Assembly (NCBI GenBank): GCA_025917655.1
Contig: CP084610.1
Location: 930,001-994,000, forward strand
Reading direction: 5' to 3'
Origin: Chlorella sorokiniana
Taxonomy: Eukaryota > Chlorophyta > Trebouxiophyceae > Chlorellales > Chlorellaceae
DNA length: 64,000 bases
A model generated the notes under the pieces. It ran no database searches and was not told the DNA's origin. It was given only the letters and a program-made list of their open reading frames with translations. Below are positions 25,502 to 64,000 of this stretch, piece by piece; position 1 is the stretch's first letter, and the number at the start of each line of letters is the position of its first letter. A program made the position numbers and the translations under genes.

Positions 25502-25770
25502 GTTGCCGCCGGGAGCAGGCACTGAAGTGGTGTGTGTGAAACGCGAGCGGAGCACAGCTTCAAAGTATTGCAACGGAGTGGTGACGCAAAAGAAAGAGGG
25601 TCTGGGGCCTTCAGAATCGCAATGTTGCTCCGGCCAGGCAGGTGGAGAGTCAGCGTGCTCAGCAGCTGCGGTAAGACACCCCTGTGTCCTCTCGGGATGT
25701 CAGTCCAGCAATGTGGAGGCCAGGCACGACTGCAATGCAGATGAGTCACAATCACAGCACAGCAGAGGTA

Positions 25771-51900: not shown

Positions 51901-54676
51901 GGGGCAGCAGGGCGCAGGTGCGGCGCTCGAACACGCAGCCGCGCGCGCGGCCTCCCAGGGCAGCACGCTGGATCAGCGGGGCGCCTGCGCCGCCTCGGAC
52001 GCGCAGGGTTGTGCGACAGCGGAGGCGGCCAGCCGGTCGCCCAGCCCCCTGCCATCATGGAACCTGGTGAGGCCTGCACCCTGTGGTCAGGGCATCCCTG
52101 TGTAGTGGTGCCACTTTGTGAAGCTTAGTAGGCATGCAGGGAGATTGCCTTGCGTTATTTTGGGGTGGACCCAAGCTTGCAGTCCTCTCCCCACCCCCCT
52201 CCCTTCCACACACACACGCTCCTCAGGGCGAGGCTGGGGCCGGCTCCCTGCAAGGCTTCCTTCCTTCTACGACCAGCGGCCGGAGGTGATGAAGGAGGTG
52301 CAGCTGGGGCCCATGATTGGGTCGGGCGCCATGGGGCGCTGCTACCGCGGCTTCTGGCAGGCAAGCCGCGTGGGCGCTGCTGCTGCAGGGCGGCGGGGGT
52401 GCCGGCCGGCGCAGCTGGCGCACGCCTGCTGCACATGTCGGGCGCACGCCATGCCGCTCCTGTCTTGCCTGCCTGCAGCCTGCTGCTCGCGGTGAGCAAA
52501 TCCCAGTCACGTGCTGCCCGTGAGCGGTTCCGGTTGCCGCCCGTGCAGGGTGGCCGCGTCGCCGTCAAGATCGTGGACTGCTGGTGGGGCGCGGCGCCGT
52601 GCGCCGCCGACAGCCGCGACCTGGCGGCGGCGGGGCGCCCTCCCAGCGCCGCGAGCCCGCAGCCAAGGCGCAGGCGGCGCTGGTGGAGGCGCTGCTGTCG
52701 CGCTCGCTCAGCCACCCCACATCGTCACCACCTTCTGCCACGGTGCCACCGAGGCGATGCTGGACCCCTGCGGCCGCATGCACCAGCAGGCACGCGGGCT
52801 GGCGCCGCCGCGCTCTGCCACCCTGGCAGCCAGCCGATGCGGGTGGCAAGATGGTCGGGTGCAGCCGCTCCAGGGCATCCGAGGGTTGCAGCTGCTGCAT
52901 GCTCACCAGGCTGGCCGGGCAGCGGTGCTCACCCTCCGACGAGGCCTCCGCTCTCCCCCTCCCACCCCGCAGGTGTGGATTGTGCAGCAGTACTGCGCCC
53001 ACGGCTCGCTGCACAAGGGCCTCAGCCGCGGCCTGCTGCGCCAGCGCGACGGCTCCCCCAACCTGCTCTACGTGCTGCTGACGGCGCAGGAGGTGGCAGG
53101 TGGGCGCCGCGCCGCGCCCGCCCGCCTGCTCCCCCGCCGCCTGCCGGGAACCTGTGCCACGCGCAGCGGCTTTGCCCTTGCAAGGTCTACCCGCGCGCCT
53201 TGCTCCTTCCCGCCGTGAGGCGGGTGCCTCCTATTGACACAATGCCTCTGTGACTGCATTGCCTCTGTGAGCGAGCTGCCCGCCCCTCTCCCCCACCCCT
53301 CCCAACCCGCCGCCGCCCGCAGGCGCCATGCTGTACCTGCACCAGCACGGGGTCATCCACGGCGACCTCAACCCCTCCAACGTCCTGCTGGCCTCCTCCG
53401 TCAAGGACTCCCGCCGCTGGGAGGCCAAGGTCTCCGACTTTGGGCTGGCCCAGATCGGCGACGACCCGCGCTCCGGCTGCCAGCGAGGCTCCGCCCTCGG
53501 CACCGGTGAGGCCGCCGCCGCGCCCTGCACCGCGCACGCGCAGTGGGGCCATCCCCGCCCGCCCGCCAGCGGCTCGGGCTGCCCTGCGCAGAGTTTGCAA
53601 GCAAGCGTTTCATGCGCCTGCCGCCCCCCCCCAGTCACCCACATGCCGCCGGAGATGCACCTTGAGGGGGAGCTGAGCAAAGCGGTGGACTCTTGTGAGG
53701 CGCCTGCCGCTGTGCTGCGCGCCCCTGCACGCCGCACATCCTGCTGAGGGCTGCCCCGCCCGCTCTGCATGCTGTCCCTCGTCCATGCTGGCGCCCTCCT
53801 CGCTGACCCCCCCCCACACACACACACACTTGGGCGCAGACTCGTTTGGCGTGATGATGCTGGAGATGTGGGAGGGGCGCCGTGCCTGGGCCGGGTACTC
53901 CATCTTCCAGACCATCTCAGCCGTGTCTGCTGGTGCGTTGGGGGAGGGTTGCGGGGTGATGCTGCTGCCCAGGAGGTGCCAAGGGGGCGCCTGTTGCCTG
54001 GGCCAGCCTGCCGAGGCTGGCGCAGCTGCCACACACCCGTGCGGCTGCCTCTGCTCCCCGCCAACCACCCCCATCTTTGGCTCTCCCCGCAGGGCGCCTG
54101 CCTTTCTCCATCCCGGCAAGCGCGCCCCCAGCGCTGGCCGTACTGCTGCGTGGCTGCCTCAGTGCGGACCCCTCGTTCCGCCCGGCTTTGCCGCCATCCT
54201 GGCCGTGGTGCAGGCGATGCTGCGGGAGCTGCAGCCATCCACCCCCACCTGCGCACCTCCCTGCCCGTCGGAGGATGCACAGCATGCGGACTCCCCGTGT
54301 TGCCAACCCCGACGCGGCCGACACGCTTGCGGCGGCCCTTCCCGGTGCTTGCTCGGCAGCGGCGCAGCTTCCGCCTCCCGACTCCCGCTCCGGGTCCGGC
54401 AACCCGCCTGCCTCTGCCCCAAGCCAGGGTCCTTTGGCTGCCAACCGCACTGTGCAGCTCAGCCCCGCGCAGGCAGGCGCCAACCGCGGCGGCGCGGTGT
54501 CCATGGCTTCTCCCTTCGCGCCGCAGGCCGGGTGGTCGGCGCCGACCACAACCAGCCCCGCCTCGCCTTTTGCTGCCGAGGCACCGGATGTCCCGCAGCA
54601 GGCACACAAGCCGGCACCTTGCACTCCGTTCGCTGCTGCCGCCGCGACGTCCGCACCCAGCCATTCCCCAGTCTGA
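48958..54676 (+). CDS. GAF-PAS tyrosine-kinase-like (TKL/Raf-type) protein kinase
   Basis: Sensor-type serine/threonine kinase. GAF domain: LLKSMFRVPHATIVLLDEG, LDAPNLVVVEDAAKDPR, TGPSPVRFIAATPLTGT, GVLVVLDFQPRSFSADLYAM (49770-50470). PAS-like part: EGVMLLDLSRPGWPLSFANP, ATVDFWDLFERA, and after an insert FSILFRPALGE and LAYFGVLQAG (51040-51900). Kinase: VQLGPMIGSGAMGRCYRGFW (P-loop), GGRVAVKIVDCW (VAVK Lys), VWIVQQYCAHGSLHKGLSRG, LYLHQHGVIHGDLNPSNVLL (HRD Arg replaced by Gly and catalytic-loop Lys by Asn, Asp kept), AKVSDFGLAQIGDD (DFG), THMPPEMHLEGELSKAVD, SFGVMMLEMWEGRRAW and RGCLSADPSFRP. The Ser/Pro-rich tail ends at 54674-54676. The start is uncertain: ATG 48958 opens a transit-like RLTAWMKGTSPARQQLASSR. 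One-base shortfalls lie at about 51495, 52716 and 54182. The ligand is unknown. Confidence 0.82.
51247..51298 (+). repeat. G-tract array in a kinase intron, G-quadruplex-prone
   Basis: About ten GGG/GGGT units in 52 bp, ending in G9, on the coding strand just downstream of a splice donor. The pattern exceeds the four-tract minimum for an intramolecular quadruplex in DNA or in the pre-mRNA. Confidence 0.85.
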
Positions 54677-55589
54677 GCTGCGCAATGTCAAGGGCCGCCT
54701 CTCAGCAACTTGAAACACCCGGCAATTTTCTTCTGATTCGGTCGCACTTGCATTCCAAGCCTATGTTTGTTTATACCTCTCGAAACCCTGACCCACGATT
54801 CACCGTTACCCTTCCTGTCTCATATATAAAAAATCATGCCTACATCCACATCCTTTTCTTGCGCCCTTACAGCCCTTCTGTTACCTGACACAGACTACCG
54901 CTACCCTTCCTGTCTCATTCATCAAAAGTCACCTGCATCCACATCCGTTTCTTGCGCCCTATGGACCTTCTATTTCCTGCCCAACCATCTAATCTGCAGC
55001 CACTTCAGCACCCAGAAAATCCGCCCACCATCAACCATCCCCTCCCAAACTCCCCCTTATCGTCATCACACGGATGAAGCTGCTGCCTTTTATGTGAGAA
55101 CACGCCGTATCTAGAAGAGCAGATTCTCACGTTCCTCGACTTGAATCATATTAGTCAGCAAGCCTGCGGCCGAGACGTGCTGTCGACGTCTGGCGTTGGA
55201 CGTCTGGCGACTGGACCATGACTTCTGGCATCGTTGCGCTTGCGTCTGTCTCCCTTCTTCATGCACATGTCTTGCATGCATCACGCTCTTGTCACTTGGT
55301 CTGAACACACTTGACCAGTCAAGAAAAGCTTGGGCGGCACCGGGCGGGGAAGGCATGCAAACAGACGCCTTGTAACAAGGGGGTGGTTGGCGACTGTCAG
55401 CAGCATGTGTGGGGAGTGGCAGAGGTCCCTCCCCATCAGCTATCATGCATCGCAGCACGGCGCAGCAGGGTTTCTCGCCGATGCTCAATTGGAAGCGAGG
55501 CGCCGTGAGTCATCGCGAATTTCTCGAGGGAGGCAACAGGACACTGGCGGGCGCGCAGAAGTCGTGCATTGCGACCCCTGACCCGAGCC
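54677..55589. other. Intergenic, AT-richer, with a tandem duplication
   Basis: 913 bp between same-strand genes. 54700-55110 is markedly lower in GC than the rest of the window and C/T-rich on this strand. Apart from the 95-bp-period duplication listed separately, no gene or RNA was recognised. Confidence 0.5.
54802..54963. repeat. Diverged tandem duplication, period 95 bp
   Basis: Two copies, 54802-54867 and 54897-54963, share TACCCTTCCTGTCTCAT, then CATCCACATCC and TTTCTTGCGCCCT, with several substitutions between them. This is a local duplication older than the 21-bp perfect pair at 3857. Confidence 0.8.
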
Positions 55590-58063
55590 ATGAGGGTGTT
55601 GCAGCTTGCGGCGGGCTCTCAAACGGCTTTTCGGCCGCCCCGTACATCACGGCAGGCGCGCGGCGCCGCCGTCGTGCCCAGCCGGAAGGGAGCGGCACCT
55701 CGAGCCACTTCCCTGCGTGCATCGGCCGTGGCAGGGCTTAGCAGCGCCACGACCGCCGGCACAGTTACCGTTCAGTTTGTCATCAACAAGCAGGCGAGCT
55801 AGGGGCCGTGGAGGCGCGGGGGTTGGGGGCCCATATGGTAGGGTCTGCCGCGGCGGCGCCAGCGCCCGCTTTGCGCTGCCGTCCTCAGCAACCGGGCTGC
55901 TCACGCAGCATGCCAGTGCACCGCAGCGGGCCCTCCAATTCCTGAAATTTCCTGCATGCACGCGCGGCCGGCTGTTGCGACATGCAAGCGCCGCCGTCCC
56001 GACGCTCCGCGCTGCGTCCAGTCGCCGCTGCGCTTCGCGAGCCCCCTTTTTCCCTCCCCTGCAGCTCACCTTTGGCCAGGAGATGGTGCTGGTGGGCGAC
56101 GCCGAGGCTCTGGGCGGCTGGCAGCTGGAGGCGGCGCCGGTGATGGCGTGGAGCGAGGGGGACGACTGGCGGGTGGCGGTGGCGCTGCCGGTGGGCGCCC
56201 CGTCGAGTACAAGTTTGCGATCAAGGACCCCCACGGGTGGGCGCCAGGGGGCCGCGCGGATGCTGTCACCGAGCGACCGGGCTTCCATGCTCTGGCTGCC
56301 ACGCTGGGGGAGGGCAGGCAGACGCAGATGCGCTGCGTGGGGTGGTCAATAGAGCCGCCGAGCGCAGCCTGGACGCCACGTTTCTGTGCGCACCTCCCGC
56401 CGAACGCCTGCACGGCACAGCACAGTCCGCCCCACCCCCCTCACCCCCATCCCCACCCCAAGCCCCCTCTGCAGCCCGCCTGTGTGGGAGGAGTGCGGCA
56501 ACCGCAGCTGGGCGGCGGACGGGCGCGGCGCGGTGCTGTCCTGCTGCTGGGACAGCGTGGATGTGACCACCGCGCCCAGCGACAGCGACGACGGCGCCCT
56601 CTCATTTGACCTGCCCCCGCTTACCGGTAGGCTGCGGGCGGCAGCCACGCCGCCAGGCTGTCGGCTGGCGGCTGGCGGCTGGGCCTGGGCTGGGCGCCGC
56701 ATGGGGCGTACCTGCAACGCGAACCAGGCCCTCAGCTGCTGATGCCTCCCTGCCCGCACCCCCTGCCCGCAGGCCCGCCCAGCCCATCACTGCCTCCAGT
56801 TTCAGCAGCGCCGTGAGCAGCGGGCGCGACGCGGTGAGCCGCGTGAGCGGCGCCGTGGCGGCCGCCAGCGGAGCCACCGCCGCCGCGGAGGCCGTGGTGG
56901 CGGCGAGGCGGCGGCGGCGGCGGTGGCGCAGGCGGTGTCCGCCGCCGAAGCCGTGGTGGCGGAGCTGACGGCGGCGGGGCTGGCCAGCAGCAACGGCGGC
57001 GGCGCGCACTCTGGCAACGGCTCTGCCGCCGCCGCCCCCGCTGGGTTCTCTCCCGAGCAGCTGGCCTTCCTGCAGCGCAAGCGGTCTGGGGTGCGTCGGC
57101 GGCCGACCTGCTGCACCGCCTGCTGCGCCGCTGCAATGCCCGCTCAGCCTGCCTCCCTGCTTTCATCACCACCCGTCACCCGTCCACTTGCTTCCCCTCC
57201 TCCTGCAGTCGCCGGGGCCAGCCACCGCTGTGGCCACCCGCCCCGTGCAGCAAAACGCGGCGGCCGCCGCCGAGGCAGTGCTGGCCGCCACCACCGCCGC
57301 CGCGGGCGCCGCCGCTCGCGTGGTGGAGGTGGCTGAGTCTGTGGCGGCGGAGCTGACTGGCTCCCCTGCGGCAGCCACCAGCAACGGCGCTGGGCAGGTG
57401 AGGAGGAGCAGCCGGCGCGGCGGCAGGGGTGTGGGATGAGTCATGAGCAAGCCCTCTGCCCAGCGCCTTCACCTCCGTGAGCCCACCCTCCCTGCTTACC
57501 ATGCAGGCCCGCCCCGCGGCCGCGGCTGCACAGGCGCAGCCCGCAACCGCCGCCGGAAACAACTACACGCCCGAGCAGCTGGCCTTCCTGCGCCGCAAGC
57601 TCAACGGCAACATGGCGGCGCCCGCCCGCGGCGGGGCCGCCGGCGGCTGGCAACGGCGCGGCGGCCCCTGCCGCCGCCCAGGGCAACTACACTCCCGAGC
57701 AGCTGGCCTTCCTGCGCCGCAAGGCAAGCTCTTTGGGAGGGGCGAAGTTAGGAATCCCGCAGAGCAGCAGCTGGGTGAATTCTTCTTCTTATGTTCCCGG
57801 TTGTGTGACACCTGGGGTGCCCCGCGGTTGAGGGCACTGCCACAGTTTTGGTCCTCCCCAAGTGCTGAGCTGTGCCCTGCTGCTGCCCTGTTGTTGCCGC
57901 AGGGCGCCTCCCCCTCCCCCGCCCACCCGCGGCCGCTCCCCAGCCCCTCGCCCCGCCCGTCGTTCCGGTCACGGTCCCCCAGCCCGCCCCCGGGGCTCCT
58001 CCTCCTCCCACGCCCAGTACTCCCGAGCAGCTGGCCTTCCTGAAGCGCTCCGGCAAGCTGTGA
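55590..58063 (+). CDS. Plastid CBM20 starch-binding protein with four YTPEQLAFLRRK motifs
   Basis: ATG 55590 begins MRVLQLAAGSQTAFRPPRTS, continuing Arg/Ser/Ala-rich to about residue 50, which is a good chloroplast transit peptide. A CBM20 starch-binding domain spans three exons: TVTVQFVINKQ / LTFGQEMVLVGDAEALGGW...DDWRVAVALPVG...VEYKFAIKD / VWEECGNRSWAADGRGAVLS...VDVT (55750-56570). The sugar-contacting Trp of GGW and the NRSW/NR block are present. No catalytic domain follows. Instead there is Ala-rich, probably helical and flexible sequence (AAEAVVAELTAAG, RVVEVAESVAAELTG), Pro-rich near the end, carrying four copies of a short motif: FSPEQLAFLQRK, YTPEQLAFLRRK twice and STPEQLAFLKR. The stop TGA is at 58061-58063. 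Introns after KQ and after motif 3 appear to have GC donors. One-base shortfalls near 56200 (CCCC) and 57650. A starch-tethering scaffold is inferred. Confidence 0.87.
57046..58048 (+). repeat. Four dispersed coding copies of the PEQLAFL motif
   Basis: Copies at 57046-57081, 57564-57599, 57688-57723 and 58016-58048. The nucleotide core CCCGAGCAGCTGGCCTTCCT is identical in all four. Outside the 11-12-residue motif the exons are unrelated in length and composition (Ala-rich or Pro-rich). This implies selection on the motif or recent exon duplication. Confidence 0.9.
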
Positions 58064-58761: not shown

Positions 58762-61700
58762 TCAGAAAAGCGGGTAGGCGGGCGGGAAGGCTGCCGCGAT
58801 GCGCCGCTGCTGCTGCCGCTCCCAGTGCGCCCAGCCCAGGCGGCGCAGCAGGTCGGCCCGCAGCTCCAGCACCTCGCGGGGCGGGCTTGTCCTCGGGGCG
58901 GCAGCCTGCAGCGGCGGCGGCGGCACAGGCGCGCGTGGAGGGATGTTGGCAGCGGATGAGCGGCCTCTGGCATGCACAAGGGCCTCACCAAGCAGCCTTT
59001 CCTTCTTCCTTGCCTTTCCCATGAGCCCCGGAACATGAACAGGCACCCTGCGTGAAGGCCCTCCCGCTCCCACCCAAAACGCAAAACACAAGTGCACAAA
59101 TGGGGCAGTCCACCCCACCCACAACCCGCACCCCCACCTTGTCGAGGCTGCGATAGGCCGAAGCCAGGCGCCCAGCCAGCGCCTCCCGTCGCGCGTGCAG
59201 CAGCACGTGCTGCACGCAACGGCAAGCAACAGGAGGCAAGGGGAAGAGTGGGCGGCACCGTGCACGGTGTCGGCAGCGGGCGGCAAGCGGCCTCGCGGCC
59301 TCAGGGAGCGAATGCGGGCGAGAGGCCCAGCCCACCTTTTCGTCCGCCGCCGTGTCCACCCACTTGCGCAACTCCGAGAAGGCGGCCTCAAAGGCGGCCT
59401 GCGTGGGCAGCTCCGAGGGGAGAGGCTCGGCTGCCTCCTCCTGTGGGGCCGCCGCAGCGTCGGCGGCTGGCGCGGCAGGCGCAGGCGCAGCCGCCTCCTC
59501 AAGCTGGTGCAGCTCCAGCAGCGCGGCGCACTTTGCGGCCAAAGCCTCCACCAGCGCAGCCTTGCGCTCATCCATCTCTGCAAACGGTGGAAACAGGCCT
59601 GCTGTCAGAAACAACAACGATGCGGTGCACAAGGGAAACAGTGAAGGGCGTGCATGGGTGGTCGGTACCTCTGTTGGGACGGCACTTTCCGAGCAAGTGC
59701 GGCTCAGCCACGCAAACAGCGACAGCAGCAGCGACAGCGGCGACGCTCTGCCGCTGCGGCCCCGCCCCTCTCACCCTTCTTGCGCTTTGCGGAGCCTGGG
59801 CCCTCTTCGGCGCACTTGCGCGCCAGGTGCACCGCCAGCTCAGTGGCATCGATCGCGCCCACCACAGCATCTGCCGCCGCCACCACAGCCTGCCAGGCGG
59901 GCGCAGCGTTGCTGGTGCCCCCCTGCTCTCCGCCCTCAGCCGCTCCGTCGCCGCCGCCGCCATTCTTGGCAGAGGCGGCGGCGGCCTCTGCGCGCGCTGC
60001 AGCGCCTCCAGCAGCAGCGGCAGGTGCCCCGGGAAGTCGGCCAGAAGCTGTGCCTGCAGCTGCGCGTACGCCGCCTTCTCCTCCTCGCTCTCGCACTTGA
60101 GCTCCCGCAGGAACTTGACCCGCGCATCCCGCAGCGACTCCGCCAGCCGGTCCCGCACCCCCAACGCCTCCTCCTCCGAGTCGCCGCCGCCGTTGCCGCC
60201 GCCGTTGCCACCTGGCGGGTCGGCCCTCTTAGGGGGCGCCAGGTAGGCGATCTGGGCGGAGGCGGGGCAGGGCGGCCGCCGTTGCCGCCGCCGTTGGGGA
60301 CCTGGCCCAGAGTGAGGCTGCCCACCAGCAGGCGGCCTGCGGGTGGGTGGGTGGGGGTGGGGGCTAGTTCTGTTGTTTGTGTTTGATTTTTGTTTACGGC
60401 TGAGATAAAAGGGGGAAGGGGCGAGCGACCTTGCAACTTTGCAAGTGCACAGGGTATGCCCGTCCAGCGCTGGCCCTGCACCGAGGGCTGCCAAGGCCGG
60501 TGTGGCTGCGCCAGCCCCTGCAGCCGCCCCACCCACCCGGCGTGGCGTCCTTGGGCAGCTTGTCATCGGGCAGAGGTCCCAGGAAGTAGGCGACCCGCTC
60601 GCCTGGTGTGTGTGTGTGTGGGGGGACACGGGTGGGGTGGGGGAGTGTGCGAAGGGGCGTGGGTTGGGTGGAGAAGGGTGGGGGCGCAGGCCTGCCAGGG
60701 ACGCAGCAAAGCCGCTTTGATGGGTGGCACAGCCAACGCCGCGCTGCCCCCCACCCCCAACACAGACAAAACACGCATACGCATCGTCGGCCCACCCTTG
60801 CACAGCGGGCGCTCCTTGGTGACCGCGTTGCTGCCGCGCAGCGCGTTGGTGTTGGAGGAGTAGACGGGCAGCGGCAGCGCCGGCTCCAGCTTGCGCTCCA
60901 GCACCAGCGGCAGGGACTGGGGGTGGTGGGTGGTGGGTGGGGGCGAGGCGAACCTAAATCAGTTGCCATGCAGGCAGGCGGCGGGGTCACAGGGGGTGCA
61001 CTGCGCGGCAGCCAGCCCGACATGCCGCCCTGTCCGGCCCTTGCCGTCTGCGCGGCCTTCCTTACACCCTGCCTCCCACGCCCAGCCCAGGCGGCCCCCT
61101 CCCACACAACTCCACATGCACACACGTTCAACACACCTTGAGCTTCTCCAGCAGCGCGGCGTCGTCGTGGCGCAGCCACAGCCGCAACGTGTAGTCCCCC
61201 TTCTTGAGCTGCACCGCTTCAGGATAGATGTCTCCCACTGCGGGCAGGGGAGGGGAGGGCAGGGGCAGGGGAGGGGGCCCCGTGGCGGAAGCGATAAGAT
61301 AAGGGAATGACGGGGCCTGGCAGCGAAAAGGACACACGGTCCTTCACCCATCCCGCCAGCCAGCTACGTTCACGCCCATGCCGCGCCGATCCGGCTCTGC
61401 TTGTGATCACCAGCCCAGCCGGCCCCCGCCGCACCCGCCAGGCGCTGCTTGTTGCTGTCGAAGAGCATGTGCATCTGTGCGTCGAGCTCGCCGTCGTATA
61501 CGTGGCGGTTGAGGGCGGGCAGGGTGGGCGTCACCGCGCCGCCCTCCGCCAGGCTGAAGGTGTAGGTGAGGAGGAGGGAGTGAGTGACGCGGCCGTCCCA
61601 CAGCGCGTCGCGGGGCCCGGCAGCGGCGCCAGCTCGGCGTCGGCGGGGCGCAGCGGGATGCGCAGCGCGTCCAGGCTGGCGGCGGGCTTGACGCGCTCGC

Positions 61701-64000
61701 GGCGCAGCGGCGCCAGCGCGTGGACCTTGGCGGGGGCCGCCCGCGCCGTCGATCACCAGCGACTGAGGGCGGGTCAGTGGGGGCAGCACGTGGATGGGCG
61801 GGTTGAGTGGGTGGCTGGGACACACGCATTGGCACGCAGAAGGTTCTCCCAACGGCAGCCGTTGAGATCAGTGCAGCCCCCCTGGACCCCCCTCCCTCCC
61901 CCCAACCCTGCTGTCGGCTCTCCGCCGCGCTGCGCCCGCTCACCTTGCTGGGCACAACCTGCACGCCGTGGAATGCCAGCTCGACGCTCAGCGCCGCCTC
62001 CCCAGGCTGCTCCAATACTGCGCCAGCGTCAGCTCCAGCGTGGTGCCGCCGCTCACCGCAAACGCGGCGCTGTGCTCCTGCGGCAGCAGCGGCGGGGGCA
62101 GCGGGCGTGAGGGGCGGGGCAGCAGGGCCAGCCGAGAGGGTCGGCTTGCTTGCTGGCTGGGCTGGAGGATGGCGACGGAGAGCCAGAGAGAGCGTCAGGC
62201 AGGGTGCTGCACGGCTCCCGCCCCCGCCCACCGCCCACCCACCCTCCCGCCCCACCCACCACCCACCAACAGCCCACCCACCCTCCCGCCCCACCCACCA
62301 CCCACCAACAGCCCACCCTCCCGCCGCCGCCCACCGCCCACCCGCCCACCCACCTGGTGCGCCGACAGCTGGGTGAAGGCGCGCCACTCGCTGTCGGTGT
62401 AGCGGGTGTGGGGCAGCAGGGCGGTGGCGCGCAGCATGTACGACTGCACGCACACAGCACATGGGAGGCGGGCCGTGGCACACGGGCAAGTTCCCTGCCG
62501 TAAGTTCCCGTAAGTTGCCACAAGGCACCACTGCTGCTCGCAGGAGCCCTTCTTGTGTGCAAAAGATCCCCCCAAGCTGCTCCGACGTGTGAGACGCCCA
62601 ATAGCTCAGCTCAGGCGAGCCTCCAAGGCCTGCCCCCACCCCTCTGCCCCCACCTTTGGCGTGTCCAGCTCGCCCGCTCGGATGCGCAGCTCAGCCCAGG
62701 TGGCGCCGCTGGGCACCGCCACGAAGCGGCGCAGCTCGGTGCCGGGCTGGAAGCGCAGCACACCTGCCGGAATGGGAGTTCAGGGGAGAGCAGTGCGTGC
62801 ATGCGTGTGTGTGCGTGTGTTGATGAAGCCGCGAGCACCTTGGCGGCTGACCCAGCCCAGGCTCCAGCTGCTGCCGAGCACGCAGGCGGCTGCCGCGTTG
62901 CGCTGCCGCAGCAGGCCCACGCGTGCCGCGTGAAGCAGCGACCAACCGCACACGCAGGCGCGCCGCCCACGCACGCAGGCGCTGCGTCGCCCGCCGCTCA
63001 CCCAGGTCGACCGAGGCGTCGGCGTGTACCACGGCCCCGCCGCCGCCGCTGCTGCCGGGGCCGCCTCCAGATCCAGGGGCTTCACAACCGTGATGGGCAG
63101 GCGGAAGAGGGGGCCCCGCCACTCGGCAGCGGCGTCAAACGCCTGAAGCTCTGCAGCGGGTCGGCGGCAGGGCCGGTGAGCAGCACAGAAGACCGCCTGA
63201 TGCCATTGTGTGTGTGGCTGGCTGGCATCACAGGCCTAACCATGCTTGCATGCCCAAACTTCACCCCATCCCATCCCAGCACACACACGCACACACACAC
63301 ACAAAAACACAAACCCCTCCACCCAAGCCTCCCCACCTGTGTAGTGCAGCCCCTCTGGCAGCCCAGTGGGGTCCACCTCCAGCTCAAAGCCCCGCCCGTT
63401 GTGGTGCAGCAGCAGCACAGAGGGCGCCTTGACCCAGGGGGCTGCAGGGGGCGGCAGGGCAAAGAGAGGGATGCGTATCACGGCCCGGCCAGGCCCCCAC
63501 ACTCGCCAGCAATAGGGCAGCAGGAGCAAGCCTGCACAAAGCCTGGCCTGGCAGCCATTCCAGAGGTTTGCAGCGCAGCGCATGGCCGCCCGCATGCCGG
63601 TGGCTCGCCAATGCCTGTGCTGCTGCTACCACCCATCCCTCACCCCACCCAAGGCCCCCACACTTCCCTCCACTCGCCTGTGCACTTCAGCAGCAGCTTG
63701 TGCTCGACCTCCAGCCGATCGCTCCGAGTATCTGCCGCCTCATGCAGGCGCGGCGACACGTCCACGCTGCACGGGGCGGTGAGCAAGGCGGCCTGCTCAG
63801 GGCACAGCGCTCACGGGCGCGGGGCCCAGGCCAGGCCCGCCCTCAGCGAGACCCCGCCACCCCCTCCCCACCCCCCCTCCGCTCTGTCGGAACGGCGACA
63901 AAACTCGACACAAGTGCCGGACAGATTGGTGCCTGGCAGCCTGCAGGGCTGGCGTTCAGGACAGCGCCCCCTGCCCTCCTCACTCACTGGAAGGTCAGCG
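58762..64000 (-). CDS. TPP2: Tripeptidyl peptidase II, C-terminal part (gene continues beyond the right edge)
   Basis: Giant cytosolic subtilisin-type exopeptidase that removes tripeptides downstream of the proteasome. Only the region after the catalytic domain is in the window. In order: VDVSPRLHEAADTRSDRLEV (63760s), VLLLHHNGRGFELEVDPTGL then PEGLHYT (63410-63340), WRGPLFRLPITVVKPLDLEA (63115-63060), FQPGTELRRFVAVPSGATWA, YTDSEWRAFTQLSAHQ, LTLAQYWSSLGEAALSVELA, LPALNRHVYDGELDAQMHML, QLKKGDYTLRLWLRHDDAAL, RVAYFLGPLPDDKLPKD, RDARVKFLRELKCESEEEKA, DERKAALVEALAAKCAALLE, and the C terminus AHWERQQQRRIAAAFPPAYP-LF, stop 58762-58764. At least 14 exons. The catalytic Asp/His/Ser triad would lie to the right. 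Frame shortfalls occur at about 61612 and 61735, plus a Gly/Asn-rich insert near 60190. Confidence 0.9.
62234..62325 (-). repeat. 39-bp tandem repeat of CCCACC tracts in a TPP2 intron
   Basis: Two identical 39-bp units (62234-62272 and 62273-62311) and a partial third, made of CCCACCC tracts on the plus strand. The TPP2 transcript therefore carries GGGTGGG arrays. It is quadruplex-prone on the coding strand, like the kinase intron array. Confidence 0.9.

Follow-up and report, generated by a model that had tools for sequence, protein, structure and literature searches.

The window, a stretch of 64,000 nucleotides of Chlorella sorokiniana DNA, has a G+C content of 68.7% and carries spliced, green-alga-like genes. 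The gene considered here occupies positions 55590-58063 on the plus strand and was read by eye as a spliced gene of about seven exons. It begins with an ATG at 55590, and an in-frame stop codon is located just 5' of 55509. The exon borders, which include two GC donors, are splice-site-like and were chosen by eye, without transcripts (Table 1). Upstream on the same strand, the product of a gene at about 52280-54680 contains a protein kinase domain (PF00069, E = 8.1e-19; PF07714, E = 5.6e-18, with joined exons), and on the minus strand a neighbouring gene at about 60800-62000 and beyond encodes tripeptidyl peptidase II (PF12580, E = 1.1e-43, with joined exon pieces).

Table 1. Exons and motif copies of the gene at 55590-58063, in positions of the window
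Feature	Positions	Strand	Content
Exon 1	55590..55793	+	N-terminus resembling a transit peptide (about residues 1-57); first strand of CBM20, TVTVQFVINKQ; donor of GC-AG type, CAG/GCGAGC, picked by eye
Exon 2	56065..56236	+	CBM20 core; one-base frame break near 56200
Exon 3	56475..56626	+	End of CBM20, VWEECGNRSW
Exon 4	56773..57090	+	Ala-rich spacer and motif copy 1; frame breaks near 56780-56815 and 56903-56908
Motif copy 1	57052..57081	+	PEQLAFLQRK
Exon 5	57209..57397	+	Ala-rich spacer without motif (translation)
Exon 6	57507..57723	+	Motif copies 2 and 3; frame break near 57636-57643; GC donor AAG/GCAAGC at end
Motif copy 2	57570..57599	+	PEQLAFLRRK
Motif copy 3	57694..57723	+	PEQLAFLRRK
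Exon 7	57903..58063	+	Pro-rich spacer, motif copy 4 and stop codon; frame break near 57920-57935
Motif copy 4	58022..58060	+	PEQLAFLKRSGKL, the exact C-terminus; Ser at the position of Lys177

As assembled, the gene can be read to its end when five frame breaks, all placed by eye, are assumed (Table 1). Four of them correspond to one missing base each, and the break between motif copies 2 and 3 has the opposite sign. We take these breaks to be probably assembly errors and not the marks of a dead gene, because the adjoining kinase gene is also broken, near 52719. At that point a stretch resembling HP-NIVTT is interrupted by an apparent missing base. As breaks recur in both genes inspected, between 52 and 58 kb, automatic gene models may be truncated or split in this region.

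The first 57 residues of the predicted protein comprise 14 Ala, 8 Arg and 7 Ser but neither Asp nor Glu, a composition like that of a chloroplast transit peptide. They are followed by a CBM20 domain. A Pfam search with the spliced models returned PF00686 with E-values of 3.4e-18 and 1.2e-17 (65.7 and 63.9 bits, against a curated cut-off of 23.3), and the unrepaired 45-residue piece of exon 2 by itself also scored above the cut-off (E = 5.1e-7, 29.8 bits). The match stops at residue 139 of the 474-letter model. The domain can be aligned to the solved starch-binding domains 8x8k, 1cyg, 1ac0 and 6aij, and the WEEC.NR stretch of exon 3 aligns to STBD1 (8x8k). When compared with 1ac0, the stretches LGGW, EYKF and VWEECGNR align to LGDW, EYKF and VEWESDPNR. 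The Trp, Lys and Trp aligned here, which we take to be sugar site 1 as assigned in Aspergillus glucoamylase, are all three present. From the presence of the domain we infer that it binds α-glucan.

Besides CBM_20 (63.9 bits), only CSLinker (23.2 bits) was returned by Pfam for the 474-letter model at E-values up to 10, a listing limit despite which the HMMER filters remove most matches above E ~0.1. An enzyme with an appended CBM20 was rejected, as this search gives no enzyme domain. The transit peptide (as judged from composition), the CBM20 and the lack of an enzyme domain, all part of the original prediction, are thus borne out. Relatives of the CBM20 were also sought by pattern. None of the four pattern matches in viral contigs was confirmed, and three of the 41 in prokaryote genomes were, all of them in Prevotella MAGs (36-37%); neither the viral nor the prokaryote contig scan contained a recognisably algal match.

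Downstream of the CBM20 exons, the tail of the protein consists of 297 letters, including three X, 93 Ala and 31 Pro. It carries four copies of a motif that starts with PEQLAFL, with the sequences AGFSPEQLAFLQRKRSG, NNYTPEQLAFLRRKLNG, GNYTPEQLAFLRRK and, directly before the stop codon, PSTPEQLAFLKRSGKL, from copy 1 to copy 4. The 21-nt string encoding PEQLAFL, CCCGAGCAGCTGGCCTTCCTG, is identical at 57052, 57570, 57694 and 58022, all on the plus strand. Each copy opens with Ser-Pro or Thr-Pro (57049-57054, 57567-57572, 57691-57696 and 58019-58024), with the Ser or Thr ahead of the Pro placed as in a helix N-cap. An identical 20-nt core in all copies had been noted originally, and the 21-nt identity agrees with this. 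The motif had been described as four copies of Y/S-T/S-PEQLAFLxRK, of which the four PEQLAFL copies stand; copy 1, however, has Phe before its Ser-Pro, and the Arg-Lys pair attributed to every copy is found in copies 1-3, whereas copy 4 has Arg-Ser at the C-terminal end of the protein.

A degenerate DNA pattern for PEQLAFL, allowing up to two mismatches, occurs at four places in the 64 kb, which are the four copies. In 100 dinucleotide shuffles the same search gave a mean of 0.01 matches, and the pattern Q..FL.RK is confined to the gene, so that chance was rejected as the origin of the repeat. If codons were chosen independently, all seven would be common to the four copies with a probability of about 2e-5, a value based on the gene's own usage and thus on few codons (six for Phe, for example). 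Because of this low value, duplication or homogenisation of the motif copies at the DNA level is likely, and codon bias was rejected as the whole cause of the identical DNA, within the limits of the small codon sample. The motif starts are separated by 97, 41 and 51 residues, all of them inside the range of 20-120 residues that FLIPPer treats as feasible for Rubisco cross-linking.

In Chlorella sorokiniana, the pyrenoid linker is CsLinker (Barrett et al. 2024, PMC11570498), whose helices are seen by cryo-EM to bind the large subunit of Rubisco in its N-terminal region. In the account of the complex given there, Arg176 and Lys177 form salt bridges with Glu51 and Asp86 of the large subunit, respectively, Phe173 occupies a pocket formed by Ile87 and Tyr97, position 7 of the helix is Leu174 or Met240, and Gln170 possibly contributes to a hydrogen-bond network. 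Because the text of that paper does not give the helix sequence, our comparison uses these named residues together with the Pfam profile. With PEQLAFLRRK taken as helix positions 1-10, a register into which the published numbering of position 7 (Leu174/Met240) fits, the CsLinker contacts fall on Q3, F6, L7, R9 and K10. Copies 1-3 each match all five contact positions, and copy 4 matches four of the five. At the named contact positions the motif is thus the same as the large-subunit-binding helix of CsLinker, with one difference in copy 4.

The profile comparison gave graded results. A 40-residue piece around copy 1 scored 28.4 bits with PF24429 (CSLinker), above the curated cut-off of 27, and was the only piece to do so. 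Two joined copies (26.3 bits), the whole 474-letter model (23.2 bits) and the single pieces of copy 2 (18.4 bits) and copy 3 (14.4 bits) remained below the cut-off, and the single 32-residue piece of copy 4 gave no match to PF24429. A query with two copies did not retrieve the CsLinker chain from the PDB, the best of its three matches being DDX42 (E = 0.49). The original prediction, in which a motif other than that of Chlamydomonas links starch to Rubisco or to some other protein of the plastid, gains strength at the level of sequence from the shared contact positions and from PF24429; it did not mention CsLinker and did not settle on one partner.

Several controls bear on these scores. None of five shuffles of the copy-1 piece matched PF24429. 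In copy 1, replacement with Ala of Gln, of Phe or of the Arg-Lys pair cost 7.5, 9.1 or 14.1 bits, respectively; in copy 2, Ala at Gln, Phe, Leu or the second Arg abolished the CSLinker match, and Ala at Lys lowered it from 18.4 to 13.8 bits. PF24429 therefore gives weight to the positions that touch Rubisco. Among 14 control genomes, 12 contained a PF24429 match at E-values up to 10, and none had one above the cut-off. The exact pattern Q..FL.RK has three matches in a six-frame translation of the window, all inside the gene, and a relaxed form (Arg or Lys at position 9, no Lys at position 10) has one match elsewhere in the window, at 25604 on the minus strand. For Q..FL.RK in a fixed register, the probability of a chance match is 9e-8 under the six-frame composition of the window and 5e-7 under a general database composition.

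A scan of IMG/VR contigs with the PEQLAFL DNA pattern yielded eight stretches with one PEQLAFL each, none of which had all five contacts. One of them (L006, PEQLAFLDRA) has Arg in register and thereby four of five contacts, and in another (L005, PEQLAFLIQRK) the Arg-Lys pair comes one residue late. With Arg-Lys in register in none of the eight, these matches were taken as chance. As L006 illustrates, once PEQLAFL is given, chance can supply four of the five contacts, so that copy 4 taken singly is weak evidence; copies 1-3 are not accounted for by chance matches of the viral type. The Chlamydomonas-type Rubisco-binding motif, reportedly defined by Meyer in 2020 as W[RK]xx[LIVA], has a single match in the protein, DWRVAV (56164-56181, model residues 102-107), which was taken as chance because it lies inside a strand common to CBM20 structures.

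Structure predictions with AF2, run without an alignment, place both of the copies modelled in a helix preceded by coil. For copy 2 the helix is PEQLAFLRRKL (residues 22-32 of 46; block pLDDT 87 and 73), and for copy 1 it is PEQLAFLQRKRS (residues 49-60 of 61; block pLDDT 72 and 88). The models, to which we give limited weight, suggest that the motif is a short helix of about ten residues in disordered surroundings. CsLinker fragments form helices of about ten residues according to the NMR data reported in PMC11570498.

We propose, with a probability of roughly 0.75, that this nuclear gene specifies a plastid protein by which starch is fastened to the Rubisco matrix of the pyrenoid, in the manner of the SAGA proteins but with a motif that would bind the large subunit. 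Judging from its composition, the transit peptide would take the protein into the chloroplast, where the CBM20, by its presumed affinity for α-glucan, would hold starch or starch primers at the pyrenoid surface. The four CsLinker-type helices in the flexible Ala/Pro-rich tail would each bind the N-terminal region of a large subunit. If the contacts can be transferred from CsLinker by identity at the named positions, the motif Phe would enter the Ile87/Tyr97 pocket and the Arg and Lys would pair with Glu51 and Asp86. A CsLinker fragment with one helix is reported to bind at 103 µM and one with two helices at 1.2 µM (PMC11570498); as single motifs are this weak, the presence of several would lend the protein avidity for Rubisco in its condensed state. 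The protein would then sit at the interface of starch and Rubisco and place or start starch around the pyrenoid. Its role would be that of SAGA1 and SAGA2 in Chlamydomonas, exerted by another motif on another Rubisco subunit. Such a protein may owe its location to something other than the CBM20, since SAGA1 is reported to arrive at the edge of the pyrenoid even in a mutant that lacks starch (PMC11649565).

The candidate can be set beside several known proteins. Like CsLinker as described in PMC11570498 (PF24429), it is a plastid protein with several helices of about ten residues in disordered sequence, and it shares with CsLinker the contact residues Q, F, L, R and K as well as a motif spacing of similar order. 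CsLinker, however, is described there as a bulk matrix linker with six repeats, whereas the candidate combines four motifs with a CBM20, and its last motif lies at the C-terminal end and is without Lys. SAGA1 and SAGA2 combine CBM20 with Rubisco-binding motifs and determine where the starch sheath lies, and their CBM20s bind starch and maltoheptaose; SAGA proteins are reported as not found outside Volvocales (PMC13167743). To judge from that description, they share with the candidate the combination, in one plastid protein, of CBM20 with copies of the local Rubisco-binding motif (binding being inferred for the candidate) and a predicted place at the interface of starch and matrix. Differences lie in the two CBM20s reported for SAGA2 (PMC13167743), compared with one in the candidate, and in the absence of any SMC-type Pfam match from its 474-letter model at E-values up to 10. 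The motif also differs, being of the CsLinker type (large subunit) as opposed to the Chlamydomonas type (small subunit in the case of EPYC1). The likeness to SAGA1 and SAGA2 is probably convergent, the proteins being set apart by Pfam content and published descriptions. EPYC1 of Chlamydomonas resembles the candidate in having multivalent Rubisco-binding helices in disordered sequence but uses another motif and another subunit; to our knowledge, it has no CBM20. PTST2 and LCI9-type proteins are likewise plastid proteins with carbohydrate-binding modules but differ in that the passages devoted to them in PMC13167743 and PMC10473226 describe no CsLinker-type motifs.

Other readings are less likely. 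The gene product might mainly be a CsLinker-like Rubisco linker that has gained a starch domain, in which case it would help to condense Rubisco, and starch binding would only bias the position of the condensate edge. Four motifs spaced by 97, 41 and 51 residues in a low-complexity tail fit FLIPPer equally well for such a linker, and the predicted helices resemble those described for CsLinker. Yet a linker needs no CBM20, Chlorella is already reported to have an abundant matrix linker, and CsLinker consists of a transit peptide and six helices, with CBM20 unmentioned in the main text of PMC11570498. We regard a linker with an added starch domain as unlikely. It is more improbable that the motif has another partner in the plastid, such as a starch synthase or a scaffold protein, in a starch initiation role like that of PTST2, and that its likeness to CsLinker is a coincidence, with an amphipathic Q..FL.RK helix reached by convergence. 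This would be difficult to reconcile with five of five contact positions in three copies, given a fixed-register chance of 9e-8 to 5e-7, or with a copy-1 piece that exceeds the CSLinker cut-off when none of five shuffles of it matches. Such a partner would nevertheless follow the logic reported for PTST2, which also pairs a carbohydrate-binding module with a protein-interaction region (PMC13167743). The viral stretches with four of five contacts or with Arg-Lys one residue out of register (one each of eight) and the relaxed match at 25604 on the minus strand count in the same direction.

The gene reading itself could be at fault, either because the breaks are real and the gene is a pseudogene, or because two genes, one with the CBM20 exons and the other with those of the motif, have been joined wrongly. 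That five frame breaks are required and that the borders were drawn by eye, without transcripts, speaks for a faulty reading. The borders around the exons are splice-site-like, however, coding sense, in the form of CBM20 residues and motif copies, persists on either side of the breaks as far as the 3' end, a single missing base would account for each of four of the five, and the kinase neighbour is broken likewise; a dead or mis-joined gene seems very improbable to us. Most likely, as far as sequence allows us to judge, the protein is a starch-Rubisco tether of the Chlorella lineage, a functional counterpart of SAGA1/2 that employs a CsLinker-type helix.

In the literature we found neither a description of a CBM20 protein with CsLinker-type motifs nor the string EQLAFL, in a search that covered mainly the main text of openly accessible articles. 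The existence of a starch-Rubisco tether with a different motif was a speculation of Franklin et al. 2026 (PMC13167743), and the candidate has an architecture that meets this speculation, with the Chlorella motif. It bears on the placement of starch sheaths around pyrenoids in algae other than Volvocales, and through it the idea that pyrenoids assemble convergently, each lineage with a shared motif of its own, can be put to a direct test by available assays. We give even odds to the broader proposal that Chlorella-type algae use one large-subunit motif as a general pyrenoid address, for linker and starch tether alike, in convergence with the small-subunit motif of Volvocales, and that the candidate is the missing organiser of the starch sheath outside that group. 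A 2024 paper states that plant engineering will need parts that bind the large subunit, possibly from Chlorella. As CsLinker is reported to condense some native plant Rubiscos (PMC11570498), the candidate, if the proposal is true, could gather starch around condensates of unmodified plant Rubisco.

Two further features of the tail may be mentioned. The Rubisco-binding sites of EPYC1 are described as targets of the kinase KEY1 (PMC13389267) and, by analogy and as an idea only, the Ser/Thr-Pro in front of every helix might serve as a phosphorylation site or phospho-switch of Rubisco binding. The spacer around copy 1 contains an Ala-rich, helix-like repeat resembling AAEAVVAEL three times (56873, 56932 and 57257). 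AF2 sets one of these repeats in a long helix (residues 2-28), and the repeat may act as a helical spacer or as an additional element for binding.
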